Positions 2,494 to 15,340 of a DNA stretch of 64,000 bases are shown one piece after another. The DNA is taken from NCBI GenBank assembly GCA_019459055.1, contig JAIBEI010000007.1, positions 62,001 to 126,000 on the forward strand. Reading direction: 5' to 3'. The stretch comes from Thiobacillus sp. GTDB taxonomy: Bacteria > Pseudomonadota > Gammaproteobacteria > Burkholderiales > Thiobacillaceae. Made by a program: the position numbers and the translations under genes. Within the stretch, counting starts at the first letter, position 1; every line of letters starts with the position of its first letter. A model generated the notes under the pieces. The model was not told the DNA's origin, did no database searches, and worked only from the letters and a program-made list of their open reading frames with translations.

Positions 2494-5400
2494 ATGACTG
2501 TTTTTTCATCGCTTTCCGTGTTCCTGCGCCGCGCGTCGCGCTGGCTGGCCGCCCTGGCTGCGCTGGCCGTACTGGGCTTTGCGACCGCGGCGGCGTTGAT
2601 GTTCTTCTGGGTGTTGCCGAATATCGCCGATCACCGCGACACGGTGGCCAGCCTGATGTCGCGCGCGCTGGGCCAGCGGGTGACGCTGGAGGCGGTGTCG
2701 GGGGTGTGGCAGCAGGCACGCCCCGAATTCCGCCTGCAGGGTGTGCGCCTGTACGACGCGCAGGGTCGCCCGGCGCTTTACTTGCCCGAACTGGAGGCCG
2801 CTTTTGCCTGGCGTTCGCTGCTGGTGCTGGAGCCGCGCTTCAACCGCATCGAGTTGCAGCGACTGACGCTCGGAGTGCGGCGCGCGCGCGACGGCCATTT
2901 CCACGTCGGCGGCATTCCCATCAGCCCGGCCGATCCCGACAGCGGTTTTTCCAGCTGGCTGCTGCGGCAGGGGCGGGTGCACGTCGGCCACGCCACACTC
3001 ACCTGGCAGGACGAGGTGCGTAACGCGCCGCCGCTGATTTTCACCGCGGTCGATTTCACCCTGACCAATGCGCGCCGCACCCACCGCCTGCAGCTGCATG
3101 CCGTCCCCCCGGCCAGCCTGGCCCGGCCGCTGACGGTCGACGCGAAACTGAGCGCACGCGATGCGGACGACCTCAAGACCTGGAACGGTACCCTCGACGC
3201 CAGCACGGCGGAGCTGTCGTTTTCGCATCTGGGCGCCTGGCTGTCCCTGCCGTATCAGCCCCAACAAGGCCAGGGTGCGCTGAAGCTGAAATTCGAGGTG
3301 GCGCGCGGCGCGCTGGGCGGGGTGGCCGCGGAACTGGACCTGCGCGCGATCGAAACATCCCTGGGGGACGGCCTGCCCGCGCTGAAGCTGAGCAAGGTGC
3401 AAGGCCGGGCCGTGTGGCAGCGGGATTCAGACGGTCAGCGCGTGATGCTTGAACACCTGCGCGTGGCGCGGCCGGGCGCCGCCCTGGGGGCGCCGTTCAG
3501 CGTGGGCCTGGCCTGGAACGCCGCGTCACATGAAATCACGGCACAGTCCCTCAGCCTGAGCGGCTGGCAATCGATATTGCCGAGCCTGCCGATGGATGCG
3601 GCGCTGCGTGCGCGCCTGCATGCCCTGCAACCGCAAGGGCGGCTCGACGGCTTGCGCTTGCACTGGCGCGGCACGCAGCCCGGGCTGGACAACTTCAGTA
3701 TTGCGACCCGCTTCAGCGGCCTCGGCGTGACAGCGGCCGGCAGCCAGCCCGGGCTGTCCAATCTCAGCGGGCGCATCGAGGGGGACGCGGCTGCGGGCGT
3801 GTTCGAAATAGACTCGAAACAGCTGAACCTGAGCCTGCCCGACCTGTTCCGTGAACCGTCGTTCGGATTCGACAGCGTGCATGCGCGCGGCAGCTGGAAG
3901 AAGACGTCACGCGGCCGCCGCCTGACCCTGGACGAAATGGCGTTCGCCAATGGGGACATGGCCGGGTCGGCCAAGGGGCGTTACGAGCTGATCGCCGGCC
4001 AGCGCGGCGTGATCGATTTGAGCGTGCATCTGAGCCGCGCCGAGGGCACCGCGGTGTACCGCTATTTCCCGAAAAAAATCGGCGAGCAAACGGTCGACTG
4101 GGTGAGACGGGCCGTCGTGGCCGGGCACTCCGACAATGTGCGGCTGGACCTCAAAGGCGACCTGGCGCAGTTCCCGTTCGAGCAGGGCAACGGCGTGTTC
4201 CGCGTCGATGTGCAGGCCAGAGATGCGGTGATCGACTATGTGCCGGGCTGGCCGCGGATCGAGGGCATTCAGGGGCGCGTGCTGTTCCAGGGCAAGACGA
4301 TGGAGGTGACCTCCAGCCAGGCGCGGATCTACGGGGTGGTGCTGGCGCCGGTGAGGGCCGTCATTCCGGACCTGATCCATCATGAGGAGCAGCTGCATAT
4401 CGACGGCGAGGCCAACGGGCCCATCCAGGATTTCATCCGCTTTGCCAACGCGAGCCCGGTTGGCGACAAGCTGCGGGGGTTCACCCGCGATGTGGATGGC
4501 AGCGGGCCGATGAAACTTGCCCTGAAACTGATGATTCCGCTGCGCCACAACCACGACACCACGCTGGCTGGCCGGCTGTCGTTTCTGGGCGATGCCCTGC
4601 GTCCGGCAGGACTGCCGCAGCTCGACCTGGTGCGCGGCGACATCGATTTCACCGATGACAGCCTGAATGCGAGAAACCTCGGTGCGCAGTTTCTCGGCGG
4701 CCCGCTGCGCATCGACACGGCCACCCGCGATGGCCAGGTGCAGATTCTGGCGCAGGGGCGCGCCACCGCTGTGGGCATATCGCCCTGGCTCGGCGCGGAA
4801 TGGGGCCAGCACTTGTCGGGCCAGGCCGCATGGCGTGGCCGGATTGACCTGGAGCCCGCGGGCGAGCGTGTCCAGATCGAATCCGACCTGGTCGGGCTGA
4901 CGTCCAGTCTGCCCGCGCCGCTGGCCAAGGCCGCTGCGCAGCCGATGCCGTTGCGGGTGATCCACCAGCCGCAGGGCGACGGCCTGCTGAATGAAATGCG
5001 GCTGGGCCACATCGTCAGCGCCGTGTGGCGCAGCACCGCGGCGGGCGGTTTCGGTCGCGGCGAAATCCGTTTTGGCGGGGATGCGCAAATGCCGGCCGAG
5101 CCCGGCCTGCGTCTGGCCGGCAGCGGACGCGGGCTGGACATTTCGGGGTGGGCGGCGCTGCTGCCCGAGGACAACGGCAAGCCGTCCTTGCCGCTTTCAT
5201 CCATCGATATCCGCTTCGATGCGCTCGACCTGATGGGACGGCGCTATCAGGCGGTGCGCCTGCAGGGGCGCACCCGCAACGGCCTGTTGCGCACCCAGGT
5301 GAGCGGGCGCGAACTGGACGGCGTGCTGACCTATCGTCCGGCGGGAGACCAGCCCGCCCGCGTATCGGCGCAATTCAGGAAACTGACCATTCCGGCCGCG

Positions 5401-10018: not shown

Positions 10019-13000
10019 TCAGGCCAGACTCTCCAGCGGCTTCGGCTCGCCGATGAGATCCCCCTGCACGCAATCCACCCCCATCTCCCCCAGCTTCATC
10101 AGCGTTTCGGCATCCTCCACAAACCCAACCGTCTTGATCCCCAGGAAATTTCCCGTTTCCAGGATCGATCGCACCAGCGCCTCGTCGATCATGCTGGTGG
10201 AAATTTCACGTACCAGCGCGCGGTCGATCTTCAGGTAATCCAGCTTCATGCTCTTCAGGCGGGTGTAGGAACTGGAGCCGGCGCCGAACGCATCCAGCGT
10301 GAAGCGGCAGCCATGGCGCTGCAGCTGGCGCATGAACAGCTGTGTCTGCGCGTGGCCTTCGATGGCGTCGGCTTCGCTGATTTCGAATATGAGTTTGTCG
10401 CCGGGGATGTCGCCGCGCGCCAGTTCGGCCAGCAGGAATTTCAGGAACAGCGGATTGGTGACCGACTGGCCGGACAGGTTGATCGAGAAGCCGCCGGACC
10501 GGGCGACGTGATCGGCATGATCGCGCATCCACTGCAGGACGGTTCTCACCACCCAGCGGTCGATTTCGGTGATGCGTTGCAGGCGCTCGGCCACCGCGAT
10601 CAGGTCACGGGTGGCGATGGTGCGTTCGCCGTGGGCGGTGGGGTGCAGCAGCACCTCGTGATACAGCGGGGTGTGCGCAGCGTCGGCCGCGGCGGCCACC
10701 GGCTGGCAATTCAGGCTGAGCAGGTTGTCGGCGAGGATGGCGGTCAGTTCGTGCGCCCATTCCGCCAGCGTCAATACGCCGCTGTCGCCGGCTTCGCTGC
10801 GGTATGACACGACGGGCGTGCCGGATTCGCGCGCGCGGGCGCAGGCGGCGTTGGCGTGGTCGTAATAGGTTTCCGGGCTGAGGCAGTCGCTTGTCCACAT
10901 CAGGCCGGCCGCCGCCTGCACATGGTAGCGGGTGCCGTTGATTTCCTGCGGGTGATCGGCGATGGCTTGCAGCAGGGCATCGGCCTGCGTCCTGGCAGCG
11001 GAGCTGTCGCCCGCTTCGGTCCAGAACGCAAGGCCGGATTCGCTCGAGCGCGCCAGCAGTGCGTTGGACGGCAGCCGTGCGGACAGCAACTGGGCCAATT
11101 CACGCAGGATGGGGGTGCGGATTTCGACCCCCGGCGCTTCGCCTGCGGGGTTGCTGATGTCGAGCTGGATAACGCCGATGGCGTAACCGCCGTCCGCCGC
11201 GCTGCGCAGCCAGTTGCGGCGGATGGCGCGGAAAAAACTCTTGCGGTTGGCGAGCCCGGTGGCGGCGTCGTGCGAGGCCTGCCACAGCAGGTCGCGCTGC
11301 ATTTTCTGGATCATCGCGCTGTAGGAACGGTCCATCAGCGGCAACTCCATATCCTCGGTCCATTGCGCCTCGCCGTCTTCCAGTAATTGCAGCAGGTCGG
11401 TGCGCTTGAGGTCGAGCTTTTTGATGCCGCGATAATTGGCGAACACGTACACCGGCGGCTGGTCGCCGATCCAGATCAGGTTGAGCGGAGTGTCGGACGA
11501 CTTGAACTGCAGCCAGTCGCCGACGCGCAGGCGCTCCGCCAGGTTGTCCTGCACCTCGCTCAGCGGCTCGCTGGCGGCGTCGTTGAGACGGGCGGCGACC
11601 GGGGTGTGCTGATGCTGTGACTTGTCCGCGTCGAACAGCGCCGCGGCGAGCAGGTCGACGATGCGGTCCTGCGCGAACTTGTCGGCGCATACCTGGGTGA
11701 GCGCCTGGTCGATGCGCTGCAACAGGGTCTGGATGTCGGTGGCGCCGGGGGGGGACGTCAACTCCGGATCGAGCCAGGCACACAGCTGTTGCAGCACCTG
11801 CCAGGCTTCGTGCGCTTTGTCGCTGTCGGCGCCATGGCGCAGCTCGGCCATCAGCAGCACATTGCGCCAGCCGCCGTTCAGGAGTTCGATCATGGCGTTG
11901 GGCACCACGCGCTTGTCCAGCCGTGCCAGCAGTTTGCGCAGGATGCGCTGCTTGGCGACTTCCGCGCCCTGGCGGCCTTCGCACATTTCCTGCAGGCGGG
12001 ACACGCGTGCGGCACGCTCGTTCAGCAGCGGTTTGACCACGCGTTCGAGCTGAGTGCGCGCCTCTTCGAACACGCCCGGATTCTTGTCTGCTTCGGCGTT
12101 GATGCGGTCGGTCCAGCGGCTCATCAGCCGCATCAGGCGTTGATCGGTGATCTTGCCGTCATCGCCCGCCACCATGCTGATACGGTCGAGCGTGTTCAGC
12201 ACCTTGTGCGCCGGGTGGGTGGGCGAGCTCAGGAATTGCGGATCGGACATCGCCAGCTTGATGAGCTTGGTTTCGAGCTGCTGGAAAAGCGGCCGCATCC
12301 CCTCGCTGATCGATTTCTCGGCGTGCATGGTGTCGAATAGCGCGCCGAACATGTCGACCGAGCGCTGCATTTCCTGGGTGACGGTGTGGGGCAACGCACC
12401 AGCGGCGGCCAGGCGCTGCAGCACCGGCGAGTGCGCCATGCCGGGCATACCCACCCTCCCATTCTGGCCAGCGGCACCAAGCGCTGTGCCCGGGGAGAAA
12501 ACGGCGCCTGCCATGCCCGATGAGGCCGATATTGCTTTCGGCAGGCCATGGAAAAAATCCAGCAGCGAGCCGGCCAGCTTGTTCAGTGTATCTGGCTGCG
12601 CAGCCGCTTCGAGGGCGGCATTTTGGGCGGATGGGGCGACGGGCGCAGGGGCTTCATCCTGAGTACGTGCAGCACGCTGCGCCAGCTTCTCTGCGCTGGT
12701 TTCCTTGCGTTCGGCCTCAATCGGTGAAGCAGGCAACAGCGCCAGCAGTTCGGCATACAGCGGGGCGAGCTGATCGGACAGCGCGTCGCGCAGCGTAGCG
12801 TAGGCCACCTGGCGCGCACGTGCCGACACCGGCACGTCCTGCAGCGCGCTGCGGTAGGCATGTCCGATCACGTCAGGGCCGAAGGGGTTGTTGCTGTGAT
12901 CGCAGTCAAAATCGAACAATTGCCCGACGCGCGGCTCGAGGTAAAAAAGCTGCGCGCGGTACATCTCGTCCAGTTTGTGCACTTCGGTTGCGGTGGCGAG

Positions 13001-13735
13001 CCAGTCTTCGAAATCCTGCTCCTCGATCAGGCTCAGTTTGCCGTCCACGGAGTCGCGGGCGGCGTAGGTCTGTATCGGACACACCTGCTTCGCCGTATCC
13101 AGCACCAGTTGCACAAAGCGGGTTTGAATGCTCGCCGCGCGCTTGCCGAATTCGAGCACAGCGCTCATCAGTGCGCTGTGCTCGACCATGTCGGAGGCCT
13201 GCGCCGCTGCAGCGCTGAGTCTGTCGCCCAGCAGGTGCATCGTCTGGTCATGCACAAGCAGCAGGGTTTCGTTCAGGAGGGTTGAACTGACTTCGCGCAG
13301 TTGCAGGGAAGCCTCGAAGGCGGGGAGATCGGCAAGATTATGGCGGTGGCTGGCCATGCGCAGCATCTGCAGCACCCGTAGCGCGGCGGCGGGATGACGG
13401 TCAAACGCGACACCGACACCGAACTGGCTGATGCGCCTGAGCGTCGCCGGCACGCGAAAGGTCTGAGCAGCTTCGATCAGGTCCGAGGTGAATAGGATTT
13501 CCACAGCGGCGTTCTGGCGATTGGCCAGCGAGGCGATCGCTGATTCCGGATCGGTGAATTTGAGAAACAGGCCGCCCAAGCAGAAATCGCGTATTTCACA
13601 AACGATCCCGCTATGTCCGGGTTGCGTGATAACGGCACTTTGAGAGATCTCAAAGCGCTTGCCGCGCCGCATTTCCTGATCGGTGTGCTGATTTTTTGCC
13701 GTCATAGCCATCAACTCCACGCTATTTATCTTCAT
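10019..13735 (-). CDS. PilZ-DUF1631-GGDEF-EAL protein with degenerate signalling motifs
   Basis: A 1238-residue protein. Residues about 24-115 look like a PilZ domain (RRGKRFEISQ, then DFCLGGLFLKF), which binds cyclic di-GMP. A long helical DUF1631 region follows to about residue 740. A GGDEF-like domain (from SHDAATGLANRKSFF) and a C-terminal EAL-like domain close the protein. The GGDEF signature position reads RSSESGLAF, and the EAL domain has EVLLHP for EALLR and LDAFGAG for DDFGTG, so both enzymes are probably inactive and may act as sensors. The start is uncertain: ATG at 13735 has AAGGAAA close by, and ATGs 8 and 10 codons on follow GGAG. It is transcribed away from the aroG leader. Confidence 0.85.
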   Translation of the reverse strand: MKINSVELMAMTAKNQHTDQEMRRGKRFEISQSAVITQPGHSGIVCEIRDFCLGGLFLKFTDPESAIASLANRQNAAVEILFTSDLIEAAQTFRVPATLRRISQFGVGVAFDRHPAAALRVLQMLRMASHRHNLADLPAFEASLQLREVSSTLLNETLLLVHDQTMHLLGDRLSAAAAQASDMVEHSALMSAVLEFGKRAASIQTRFVQLVLDTAKQVCPIQTYAARDSVDGKLSLIEEQDFEDWLATATEVHKLDEMYRAQLFYLEPRVGQLFDFDCDHSNNPFGPDVIGHAYRSALQDVPVSARARQVAYATLRDALSDQLAPLYAELLALLPASPIEAERKETSAEKLAQRAARTQDEAPAPVAPSAQNAALEAAAQPDTLNKLAGSLLDFFHGLPKAISASSGMAGAVFSPGTALGAAGQNGRVGMPGMAHSPVLQRLAAAGALPHTVTQEMQRSVDMFGALFDTMHAEKSISEGMRPLFQQLETKLIKLAMSDPQFLSSPTHPAHKVLNTLDRISMVAGDDGKITDQRLMRLMSRWTDRINAEADKNPGVFEEARTQLERVVKPLLNERAARVSRLQEMCEGRQGAEVAKQRILRKLLARLDKRVVPNAMIELLNGGWRNVLLMAELRHGADSDKAHEAWQVLQQLCAWLDPELTSPPGATDIQTLLQRIDQALTQVCADKFAQDRIVDLLAAALFDADKSQHQHTPVAARLNDAASEPLSEVQDNLAERLRVGDWLQFKSSDTPLNLIWIGDQPPVYVFANYRGIKKLDLKRTDLLQLLEDGEAQWTEDMELPLMDRSYSAMIQKMQRDLLWQASHDAATGLANRKSFFRAIRRNWLRSAADGGYAIGVIQLDISNPAGEAPGVEIRTPILRELAQLLSARLPSNALLARSSESGLAFWTEAGDSSAARTQADALLQAIADHPQEINGTRYHVQAAAGLMWTSDCLSPETYYDHANAACARARESGTPVVSYRSEAGDSGVLTLAEWAHELTAILADNLLSLNCQPVAAAADAAHTPLYHEVLLHPTAHGERTIATRDLIAVAERLQRITEIDRWVVRTVLQWMRDHADHVARSGGFSINLSGQSVTNPLFLKFLLAELARGDIPGDKLIFEISEADAIEGHAQTQLFMRQLQRHGCRFTLDAFGAGSSSYTRLKSMKLDYLKIDRALVREISTSMIDEALVRSILETGNFLGIKTVGFVEDAETLMKLGEMGVDCVQGDLIGEPKPLESLA

Positions 13736-13797: not shown

Positions 13798-13827
13798 TTG
13801 GCGTGATCCGGCCGTTTTTGGTAGACT
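13798..13827 (+). promoter_or_regulatory. Candidate sigma-70 promoter for the aroG leader
   Basis: TTGGCG (13798-13803) and TAGACT (13822-13827) are separated by 18 bases. Transcription would start near 13834, just before the leader peptide at 13850. TATGCA at 13830 is another possible -10 element. Confidence 0.4.
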
Positions 13828-13849
13828 GCTATGCATGATTCGTGCCGAA

Positions 13850-13903
13850 ATGTTCTTTTTTAGCCGCTTTTATCCCACGCCGCAGGCGGTCGGGAGGCGC
13901 TGA
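13850..13903 (+). CDS. Phe/Tyr-rich leader peptide of the DAHP synthase attenuator
   Basis: A 17-codon ORF, MFFFSRFYPTPQAVGRR, ends at TGA 13901-13903, 96 bases before the aroG start. Codons 2-4, 7 and 8 are Phe, Phe, Phe, Phe and Tyr. This density is typical of attenuation leaders such as enteric pheL and pheM. An in-frame ATG at 13835 would add five residues. No strong ribosome binding site is visible before either start. The downstream RNA can form alternative hairpins (see the next entry). Translation of this ORF is an inference. Confidence 0.65.
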   Translation: MFFFSRFYPTPQAVGRR

Positions 13904-13952
13904 GACGAGCAGCAACGCCTTAACGAAACCGCCAGCCCGCTGGCGGTTTTTT
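13885..13952 (+). promoter_or_regulatory. Transcription attenuator of aroG (antiterminator and terminator)
   Basis: The terminator stem is ACCGCCAG (13928-13935) with CTGGCGGT (13940-13947), followed by a T run to 13952. The upstream segment GGCGGT (13885-13890), inside the leader ORF, is exactly complementary to ACCGCC at 13928-13933, the 5' arm of the terminator, so it can act as antiterminator. AGGCG (13895-13899) and CGCCT (13916-13920) can form a third hairpin. A ribosome stalled on the Phe codons leaves GGCGGT free, whereas one that reaches the stop codon covers it. This is the standard amino-acid attenuation logic and would make aroG respond to charged tRNA-Phe. Confidence 0.65.
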
Positions 13953-13999
13953 CGTTTAGGAAACTGCCGCAGCCAAGGCAAACAACCCGGAGCTTGAAA

Positions 14000-15076
14000 A
14001 TGTCTGCCATCCGAACCGACGATACCCGCATCGAGCAAAGCGGCGAACTGCTTGCCCCGATGCAGATCATGCGCGAATTGCGCGCCAACGAAACGGTGCA
14101 CGCGCATGTCGCGCACGCGCGCAGCGCCATTCACGACGTGCTGCGCGGGGCGGACGACCGCATGTTCATCGTCGTCGGCCCCTGTTCGATCCACGACCCG
14201 GCCGCCGCGCTCGACTATGCACGGAAATTGAAGCCGCTGGCCGACGAGTTGGCGCACGATCTCATCATCGTGATGCGGGTCTATTTCGAGAAGCCGCGCA
14301 CCACCGTGGGCTGGAAGGGGCTGATCAACGATCCGCATCTGGACGAGAGCTTCGACATCAACGAGGGGCTGCGGCTGGCGCGCAAGCTGCTGCTCGACAT
14401 CAACGAAATCGGCCTGCCGTGCGCGACCGAGTTCCTCGACCTGATCTCGCCGCAATACATCGCCGACCTGGTGAGCTGGGGCGCCATCGGCGCGCGCACC
14501 ACCGAGTCGCCGTCGCACCGTCAGCTGGCCTCCGGCCTGTCGTGCCCGGTGGGGTTCAAGAACGGCACCGACGGCAGCCTCAGGATCGCGGTCGAGGCGA
14601 TCAAGGCGGCGGCGGCGCGCCACCATTTCATCTCCATCACCAAGTCCGGCCACGTCGGCGTGTTTAGCACCTCGGGAAACGAGGACGCCCACGTCATCCT
14701 GCGCGGTGGCAAGGCGCCCAATTACGACGCGGCGAGCGTCAATCTGGCGTGCTGCGAACTGGCCGCGGCCGGCCTGCGCCAGCAGCTGATGATTGACTTC
14801 TCGCACGCCAATTCGAGCAAGCAGTTTCAGCGCCAGATCGATGTCGGCGCCGACGTGGCGGCGCAGGTGGCCGGCGGCGACGCGCGCATCATCGGCGTCA
14901 TGGTCGAAAGCCATCTGAGCGCGGGGCGCCAGGATTTGATCCCGGGGCAACCGCTGGAATACGCCAAATCGATCACCGACGCCTGCATCGGCTGGGACGA
15001 CACCGTTCCGCTGCTGCGGATGCTGGCAGACGCGGTAAAAAAACGCCGCCTGAGCGTGCCGGAGGACGAGGAATAA
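14000..15076 (+). CDS. aroG: 3-deoxy-7-phosphoheptulonate synthase, class I (AroG type)
   Basis: A 358-residue DAHP synthase that condenses phosphoenolpyruvate and erythrose 4-phosphate, the first step of the shikimate pathway. The diagnostic segments are VVGPCSIHDP, GARTTESPSHRQLASGLSCPVGFKNGTDG, and IDFSHANSSKQFQRQ. Length fits the 350-residue enteric AroF/G/H group. I chose the ATG at 14000, which has GGAG at 13989-13992; a TTG at 13994 would be too close to that site. The leader peptide and terminator upstream point to regulation by attenuation on Phe/Tyr codons. Which amino acid feeds back on the enzyme cannot be read with confidence. Confidence 0.95.
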   Translation: MSAIRTDDTRIEQSGELLAPMQIMRELRANETVHAHVAHARSAIHDVLRGADDRMFIVVGPCSIHDPAAALDYARKLKPLADELAHDLIIVMRVYFEKPRTTVGWKGLINDPHLDESFDINEGLRLARKLLLDINEIGLPCATEFLDLISPQYIADLVSWGAIGARTTESPSHRQLASGLSCPVGFKNGTDGSLRIAVEAIKAAAARHHFISITKSGHVGVFSTSGNEDAHVILRGGKAPNYDAASVNLACCELAAAGLRQQLMIDFSHANSSKQFQRQIDVGADVAAQVAGGDARIIGVMVESHLSAGRQDLIPGQPLEYAKSITDACIGWDDTVPLLRMLADAVKKRRLSVPEDEE

Positions 15077-15125: not shown

Positions 15126-15219
15126 GGCGGGTCTCCCCGCATGGCTACGTTGTGAATCGGGTCAGGTCCGGAAGGAAGCAGCCCCAGCGACCGATGCCAG
15201 TGCCGGGGTAAGGCTCGCC
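15126..15219 (+). ncRNA. ffs: Signal recognition particle RNA, small bacterial type (4.5S)
   Basis: The conserved tip GGTCAGGTCCGGAAGGAAGC is present, followed by the matching 3' strand ending CCGGGGTAAGG. The ends pair: GGCGGGTC (15126-15133) with GGCTCGCC (15212-15219), allowing G-U pairs, which fixes the boundaries to within a few bases. The RNA binds Ffh and targets membrane proteins to the translocon. The position just before dnaX is common in betaproteobacteria. Confidence 0.95.
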
Positions 15220-15225
15220 ACTTTT

Positions 15226-15327
15226 CCAGGATTCAGGGGTCAGGATTCAGGGATCAGGGTGGGATGGTCGTGTCCAGTGCATATCATCAACGAAACAGTT
15301 TTTCCTGACCCCTGAATCCTGACCCCT
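15226..15327. repeat. TCAGGATTCAGGG-type inverted repeat element
   Basis: The left arm (15226-15258) holds CAGGATTCAGGGGTCAGG and a near-tandem copy. The right arm (15304-15327) reads CCTGACCCCTGAATCCTGAC, its reverse complement. About 45 bases of unrelated sequence lie between. The same arm sequence occurs again at 41196-41318. The element lies between ffs and dnaX. Confidence 0.8.
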
Positions 15328-15340
15328 CGCCCTTCAAACC

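Follow-up and report, generated by a model that had tools for sequence, protein, structure and literature searches.

DAHP synthase sets the flow of carbon toward all aromatic amino acids, and in proteobacteria its transcriptional control is known mainly through enteric repressors. Enteric pheA (pheL) and pheST are governed by attenuators in which, as generally described, a Phe-coding leader is followed by a terminator and an antiterminator, and in the ilv and thr attenuators a single leader reads several end-product amino acids. Rfam holds amino acid leader families for Phe, Trp, His, Leu and Thr. A DAHP synthase attenuator, that of aroR-aroF in Corynebacterium glutamicum, was reportedly described by Neshat and colleagues in 2014 (Neshat et al. 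2014). Later accounts state that stalling raises aroF expression under Phe limitation, and that according to a review Tyr availability is without effect (PMC11802643, PMC7356990). Another account tabulates attenuators predicted on the Merino website; they precede some type I-beta operons and the Vibrio operon aroAIalpha_Y-tyrA, which opens with the gene for a Tyr-inhibited DAHP synthase (PMC1173090). A leaderless leader ORF, in an RNA that begins with the ATG, is given in two papers for Sinorhizobium meliloti trpL (PMC7298713, PMC10117765).

We analysed a 64-kb stretch of a Thiobacillus-like genome (hereafter the window) in which the aroG gene is preceded by what is very probably a classical ribosome-mediated transcription attenuator. 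From what these sources give, the C. glutamicum leader, which contains Phe-Tyr-Phe, likewise precedes a DAHP synthase gene; that system is actinobacterial whereas ours is proteobacterial, and the two are likened by description, not by sequence. The Vibrio operon shares a predicted attenuator on a proteobacterial type I-alpha DAHP synthase gene, but its target, as described there, is the Tyr-inhibited paralogue in an operon with tyrA; three Vibrionaceae aroG-like loci (L051, L056, L072) among the best 80 of 591 are without the element described here. The enteric Phe attenuators have the same component parts and differ in their target genes; the aroG leader matches no Rfam family. S. meliloti trpL shares the leaderless leader ORF, which at aroG is suggested by a -10-like box, and differs in its Trp codons and its trpE target. 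The ilv and thr systems share the multi-amino-acid leader and differ in pathway (branched-chain or Thr/Ile). The points that distinguish the aroG leader are its target gene, its mixed aromatic code and its probable leaderless start. The earlier note on this DNA knew of no described case for betaproteobacterial aroG. The open literature, taken without Panina 2001, Vitreschak 2004, Neshat 2014 and the Merino list, yielded no report of one, but the C. glutamicum system and the Vibrio predictions are precedents for DAHP synthase attenuators. The element is widespread and apparently an undescribed example of a classical mechanism.

The aroG gene and its putative leader peptide

The aroG gene (14000..15076, plus strand) was assigned by profile matches of its product, which scored 527.9 bits against TIGR00034 (cut-off 173.2) and 559.3 against the AroG equivalog model NF006723, slightly below the cut-off of 568. 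In profile searches of the Thiobacillus-like genome this product was the sole match to type I-alpha DAHP synthase, and a search for the type II enzyme gave none. The start codon is ATG 14000, which lies 48 nt 3' of a terminator T run, as the earlier note had it; TTG 13994 is a possible alternative start.

The earlier note proposed a 17-codon leader ORF with Phe and Tyr codons. This ORF is confirmed: MFFFSRFYPTPQAVGRR is encoded at 13850-13900 and followed by TGA at 13901-13903. Its frame extends upstream without a stop to ATG 13835, which makes it the 22-codon ORF MIRAEMFFFSRFYPTPQAVGRR (13835..13903 including the TGA, plus strand), and 13835 rather than 13850 is most likely the start, judging by the sequence and its relatives; the inner ATG 13850 is present in the window and in L083. 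The candidate sensor codons, Phe-Phe-Phe-Ser-Arg-Phe-Tyr, occupy 13853..13873 on the plus strand, and their aromatic identity is favoured in relatives. A putative promoter (13798..13827, plus strand) consists of TTGGCG at 13798-13803, an 18-nt spacer and an extended -10 element, TGG-TAGACT, at 13819-13827. A strict sigma-70 promoter scan of the locus reported none, and the call of the -10 box rests on comparison with relatives. Since this -10-like box ends 7 nt 5' of ATG 13835 and no Shine-Dalgarno sequence was seen before that ATG, the leader is probably leaderless, with its RNA starting at or very near ATG 13835.

The comparison covered 176 leader rows. A -10-like hexamer ending 6-9 nt before the leader ATG was found in 49 of 54 Thiobacillaceae rows, with 0/54 at control offsets of 16-19 nt, and in 3/3 named Thiobacillus/Tepidiphilus relatives, 35/53 other betaproteobacteria, 13/17 Xanthomonadales-like and 10/13 alphaproteobacterial rows; the choice of leader start in this set preferred an ATG with TAnnnT 5-9 nt upstream, which biases these counts toward the leaderless reading. 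Control offsets gave 0-3 rows per group. Under the same start rule this spacing was rare in Oxalobacteraceae (2/19) and Burkholderiaceae (0/17), and in the latter a -10-like box was found about 35-38 nt upstream of the leader ATG. Summed over the groups, a Shine-Dalgarno-like word preceded the leader ATG in 8/176 rows versus 117/176 for aroG itself. The 176 rows include one Thiobacillaceae locus with no real leader (L117). They leave out L133, for which 132 nt of upstream DNA was available, L038, whose frame is broken, and L136 and L137, which lack the element, as well as same-genome repeats and loci without aroG.

The codon content of these leaders varies with lineage. Phe dominates in Thiobacillaceae (mean 3.8 Phe and 1.0 Tyr, with Trp in 1/54), and most other lineages mix Phe and Tyr, often with Trp. 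Trp occurs in 17/17 Xanthomonadales-like, 13/17 Burkholderiaceae, 10/13 alphaproteobacterial and 30/53 other betaproteobacterial leaders, in 3/19 from Oxalobacteraceae and in 0/3 of the named Thiobacillus/Tepidiphilus relatives. The sensing of Phe and Tyr proposed by the earlier note is refined by the broader aromatic code elsewhere. We counted 129 changes at aromatic codons over 59 disjoint pairs of similar leaders: 77 left the residue aromatic (45 synonymous, 32 to another aromatic residue) and 52 were to or from a non-aromatic residue, whereas a random single-base change would leave it aromatic about one time in four. Changes at the other leader codons of these pairs were 63 synonymous and 236 non-synonymous. 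Since aromatic residues are retained above the random expectation, the comparison points to selection for them, and hence for translation of the leader.

The terminator and the predicted pairing switch

An intrinsic terminator lies between leader and aroG (13925..13952, plus strand). The T-tailed stem that the earlier note placed at 13928-13947 is confirmed and extends to 11 pairs at 13925-13950, with segment 3 at 13925-13935, a loop at 13936-13939 and segment 4 at 13940-13950; the core is ACCGCCAG (13928-13935), loop CCCG and CTGGCGGT (13940-13947), and the T's run to 13952. Segment 2, GGCGGT at 13885..13890 within leader codons 17-19 (plus strand), is the exact complement of ACCGCC at 13928-13933 in the terminator 5' arm, just as had been noticed at the outset, and folding and comparison agree with their pairing. 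A segment complementary to the terminator arm over at least 5 pairs is found near the leader's end in 173/176 rows. A possible protector (1:2) hairpin is predicted at 13874..13894 on the plus strand, pairing CCC 13874-13876 with GGG 13892-13894 and, inside these, CGCC 13878-13881 with GGCG 13885-13888.

These parts are the hallmarks of an attenuator that can be read from sequence: a short leader ORF with clustered end-product codons, and an intrinsic terminator between it and the gene. Prediction and comparison add an antiterminator that is exclusive with the terminator and freed by a ribosome at the sensor codons, less strongly so in Thiobacillaceae. In the mechanism we propose, RNA polymerase would begin at ATG 13835 or very close to it, with a ribosome trailing it through the leader ORF. 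When charged Phe- or Tyr-tRNA is scarce, the ribosome would stall at codons 7-13 and leave segment 2 just outside, free to pair with the 13928-13933 part of segment 3, so that the terminator would not form in time and aroG would be transcribed. When charged tRNA is plentiful, the ribosome would reach the stop codon at 13901 and cover segment 2; segments 3 and 4 would then form the terminator, and transcription would end before aroG. We infer the start site, the translation of the leader, the stalling, the response to Phe and Tyr and so regulation itself. The attenuator reading, the core of the earlier proposal, is supported by the presence of the parts, their conservation, their association with aroG, the selection on aromatic codons and the modelled pairing switch.

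That switch was modelled by folding the leader with ribosomes at defined positions. For window transcripts in which segment 3 has only just been synthesized (3' ends at 13934-13942), a ribosome stalled at F9, F12 or Y13 gave a 2:3 pairing probability of 0.99-1.00, and a ribosome at the stop codon gave 0.00. Once the full leader is made, the terminator is favoured in every ribosome state, stalled included, so the switch must be kinetic. Across 175 of the 176 leader rows, mean upstream pairing of segment 3 was 0.94 with a stalled ribosome, 0.32 with the ribosome at the stop and 0.66 in the stalled state with a shuffled spacer, and it was higher stalled than at the stop in 170/175 loci. Thiobacillaceae means were 0.97 stalled versus 0.55 at the stop, and in 20/53 of these loci segment 3 paired upstream at 0.8 or above despite a ribosome at the stop. 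With no ribosome, segment 3 paired upstream at a mean of 0.69 over the 175 loci and 1.00 in Burkholderiaceae; in the folding model, the untranslated leader has no clean default-off state. Whole-leader folding energy does not stand out (z -1.07, not significant) and was dropped as evidence.

In comparative pairing changes, the terminator pairs covary and the segment 2:3 pairs do so modestly. One alignment (A1) had two-sided changes in 3/10 terminator pairs and 3/8 segment 2:3 pairs; a second (A2) misaligned segment 2 and was set aside. In a set of 164 rows preselected for GGCGG and CCGCC, with the 12 rows without these omitted, three of the four terminator pairs tested exceeded all 1000 shuffles and the fourth was reached by 2/1000. 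The 2:3 core is uninformative here because the rows were chosen for it; of its five flanking pairs, two exceeded all 1000 shuffles and three did not, and the flanks are often mismatched.

The combination of features is not a chance occurrence. We scanned for a short ORF carrying, within 12 residues, at least 5 aromatic ones, a stop no more than 60 nt from a strong terminator, and at least 6 bases complementary to its arm. The full combination occurred once in the window, at the aroG leader, was absent from 608,960 background bases on both strands (DNA cut from 80 aroG loci, starting at base 3001), and did not arise in 5000 dinucleotide-preserving shuffles of the leader.

Metabolite-binding riboswitches and T-boxes likewise combine a terminator with an alternative pairing. 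Control of the aroG terminator by either is scarcely credible to us, given that none of the 4227 Rfam families matched over the leader at E up to 5, that nine related loci searched at E up to 1 had nothing near gathering score at their leaders, and that the conserved alignment columns are the aromatic codons, segment 2 and the terminator. Two weak, unrelated Rfam matches, far under gathering score, touched the leader region among these nine: RNAI in L016 (E 0.98) and Plastid-petD at the terminator end of L003 (E 0.71).

Conservation among Thiobacillaceae and other proteobacteria

The earlier note had tied its reading to conservation of the leader ORF and the complementarity in close relatives, and both are conserved. 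In the family, aroG is present in 57 of 61 genomes, and 57 upstream regions were compared (56 genomes plus a paralogue, the second copy in G048; G052, with a split match, was left out). Leader ORF and terminator were found in 53 of these, three of them weak. The four exceptions were L117, with a terminator and no leader, L133, which is cut short, and L136 and the paralogue L137, which have nothing. A single Phe is kept in the weak leaders of L101 and L134; in L082 the conserved ATG frame is interrupted, and an aromatic peptide comes solely from a different frame that begins with GTG. The L108 element stands about 300 bases upstream of aroG, separated from it by a gap of N.

In L117, L101, L134 and L082 the terminator persists beside a leader that is weak or absent, which suits an explanation in which the small ORF is a bystander and the terminator serves to insulate aroG or to end an RNA from upstream. 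This is very unlikely at the window locus, where the nearest upstream gene (10019-13735) is divergent, on the minus strand; moreover, the leader's aromatic residues appear to be under selection, and nearly every row carries the terminator-arm complement near the leader end.

Beyond the family, a terminator with an aromatic leader was found at 31 of the best 80 of 591 named aroG loci, one of them (L038) with a broken frame. Carriers among these 80 include Burkholderia, Paraburkholderia, Caballeronia, Cupriavidus, Janthinobacterium, Massilia, Rugamonas, Noviherbaspirillum, Thiobacillus and Tepidiphilus, several betaproteobacterial MAGs, a 'Devosia' MAG and a 'Lysobacterales' MAG. An origin of the element restricted to Thiobacillus was abandoned after this wider survey found it elsewhere. 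Many aroG genes among the 80, including those of Rhodocyclaceae and enterics, are without it.

A covariance model built from 32 leaders (R1) was run on 300 genomes of the order, of which 232 have aroG at E up to 1e-40. The genome that the window comes from has a single full-length match below E 1, at the aroG site. Some match at E up to 0.01 was found in 130 of the 300 genomes, many of them confined to the model's terminator end. Among 70 full-length matches that we checked, 68 were upstream of aroG, including all of the best 30, and two (L206, L207) had no adjoining aroG. Further listed full-length matches lay outside the 70, in G003, G023, G031 and G038 (family genomes, covered in the upstream set) and in G079, G201 and G224. 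All 68 aroG-adjoining matches, spanning 14 family codes, have an aromatic leader: 64 by our leader finder, and L193, L194, L198 and L205, whose terminator loop exceeded its limit, by separate inspection. In a control of aroG loci from order genomes without a listed full-length match, a few of which had partial or unlisted weak matches, the element was found in 1/40 (G237).

Wider searches with R1 gave matches at E up to 0.001 in 12/274 class genomes and 38/299 phylum genomes, order members included, and at E up to 1e-4 in 8/190 genomes in the class of G766 and 23/101 in the order of G515. Twelve alphaproteobacterial matches (L259-L266, L268-L271) and 16 gammaproteobacterial matches (L248, L249, L257, L258, L274-L285) lie upstream of aroG; MITVATSYFWYFSYDSLLAAGGSRSI and MNAARASFYFWYYFPMPLAEEGLRSP are examples of leaders from these outside lineages. 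The labels 'alphaproteobacterial' and 'Xanthomonadales-like' were assigned from kinship labels and from the look-alikes L061 (Devosia) and L036 (Lysobacterales). Matches L252-L256, L272 and L273 were dropped for want of an adjoining aroG, as was L267, which shows no aroG and ends 53 bases from a contig end.

History and possible regulatory role of the element

On a tree of 105 AroG rows, made by a quick method, at least 7 changes are required to explain where the element is present, versus a mean of 35.1 when shuffled, and the starred branches alone force 2. The element is clustered on the tree and was gained or lost several times. The copy from 'Lysobacterales' (L036, L274) clusters with betaproteobacterial AroG (support 81, branch not starred), which suggests transfer; an old origin of the element is possible.

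Attenuation could also be real but minor at aroG, with the main control lying in a DNA-binding repressor and in feedback inhibition of the enzyme. Escherichia coli aroG is placed in the TyrR regulon in one account (PMC1173090), and regulons are said in another to differ between lineages (PMC5343134); the former, dating from 2005, limits TyrR to the lower-gammaproteobacteria. We consider this division of control unlikely.

More broadly, and tentatively, for we would stop just short of calling it probable, the loci may form a single RNA family, probably old within the alpha-, beta- and gammaproteobacterial aroG lineage but sometimes transferred together with the gene, that controls entry to the shikimate pathway through one often leaderless peptide reading Phe, Tyr and, in many lineages, Trp. 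Lineages without it, such as enterics and Rhodocyclaceae, would use repressors or other control, and the terminated RNA, a small leaderless mRNA, might act in trans like rnTrpL. A conserved aroG attenuator across three classes would alter the default picture of entry-point regulation and would provide an RNA family for annotation. It also makes a testable claim, that a single peptide can integrate up to three end products.

Several further observations were made at these loci. In the window, the divergent gene at 10019-13735 (minus strand) encodes a 1238-aa protein whose C-terminal third matches GGDEF/EAL-type domains, and a bacterial small SRP RNA (4.5S) lies at 15126-15222 between aroG and dnaX (Rfam E 4.5e-16). 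A palindromic GATTCAGGGGTCAGG repeat occupies 15228-15336, between the SRP RNA and dnaX; its pattern has 21 genomic sites at no more than 3 mismatches versus 0 for the reversed control pattern, and it is possibly a dispersed repeat family. Rfam miRNA matches at 15225-15336 fall on this repeat, far under gathering scores, and were rejected.

Candidatus Burkholderia humilis is a leaf-nodule symbiont. In its locus (L038, 2809-2958), the terminator and the complementarity are kept and the leader frame is broken. An Anaerolineae MAG (L073) has MSRYFSFFSWYGYFAAGQVERAVVRPRDV about 190 bases upstream of aroG, followed by a different strong hairpin with no clear U tract, perhaps an independent attenuator or a misbinned contig. 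In G082, G209 and G304 (L162-L164), a tandem aroG pair stands behind a single attenuator whose leaders are rich in Phe, Trp and Tyr.
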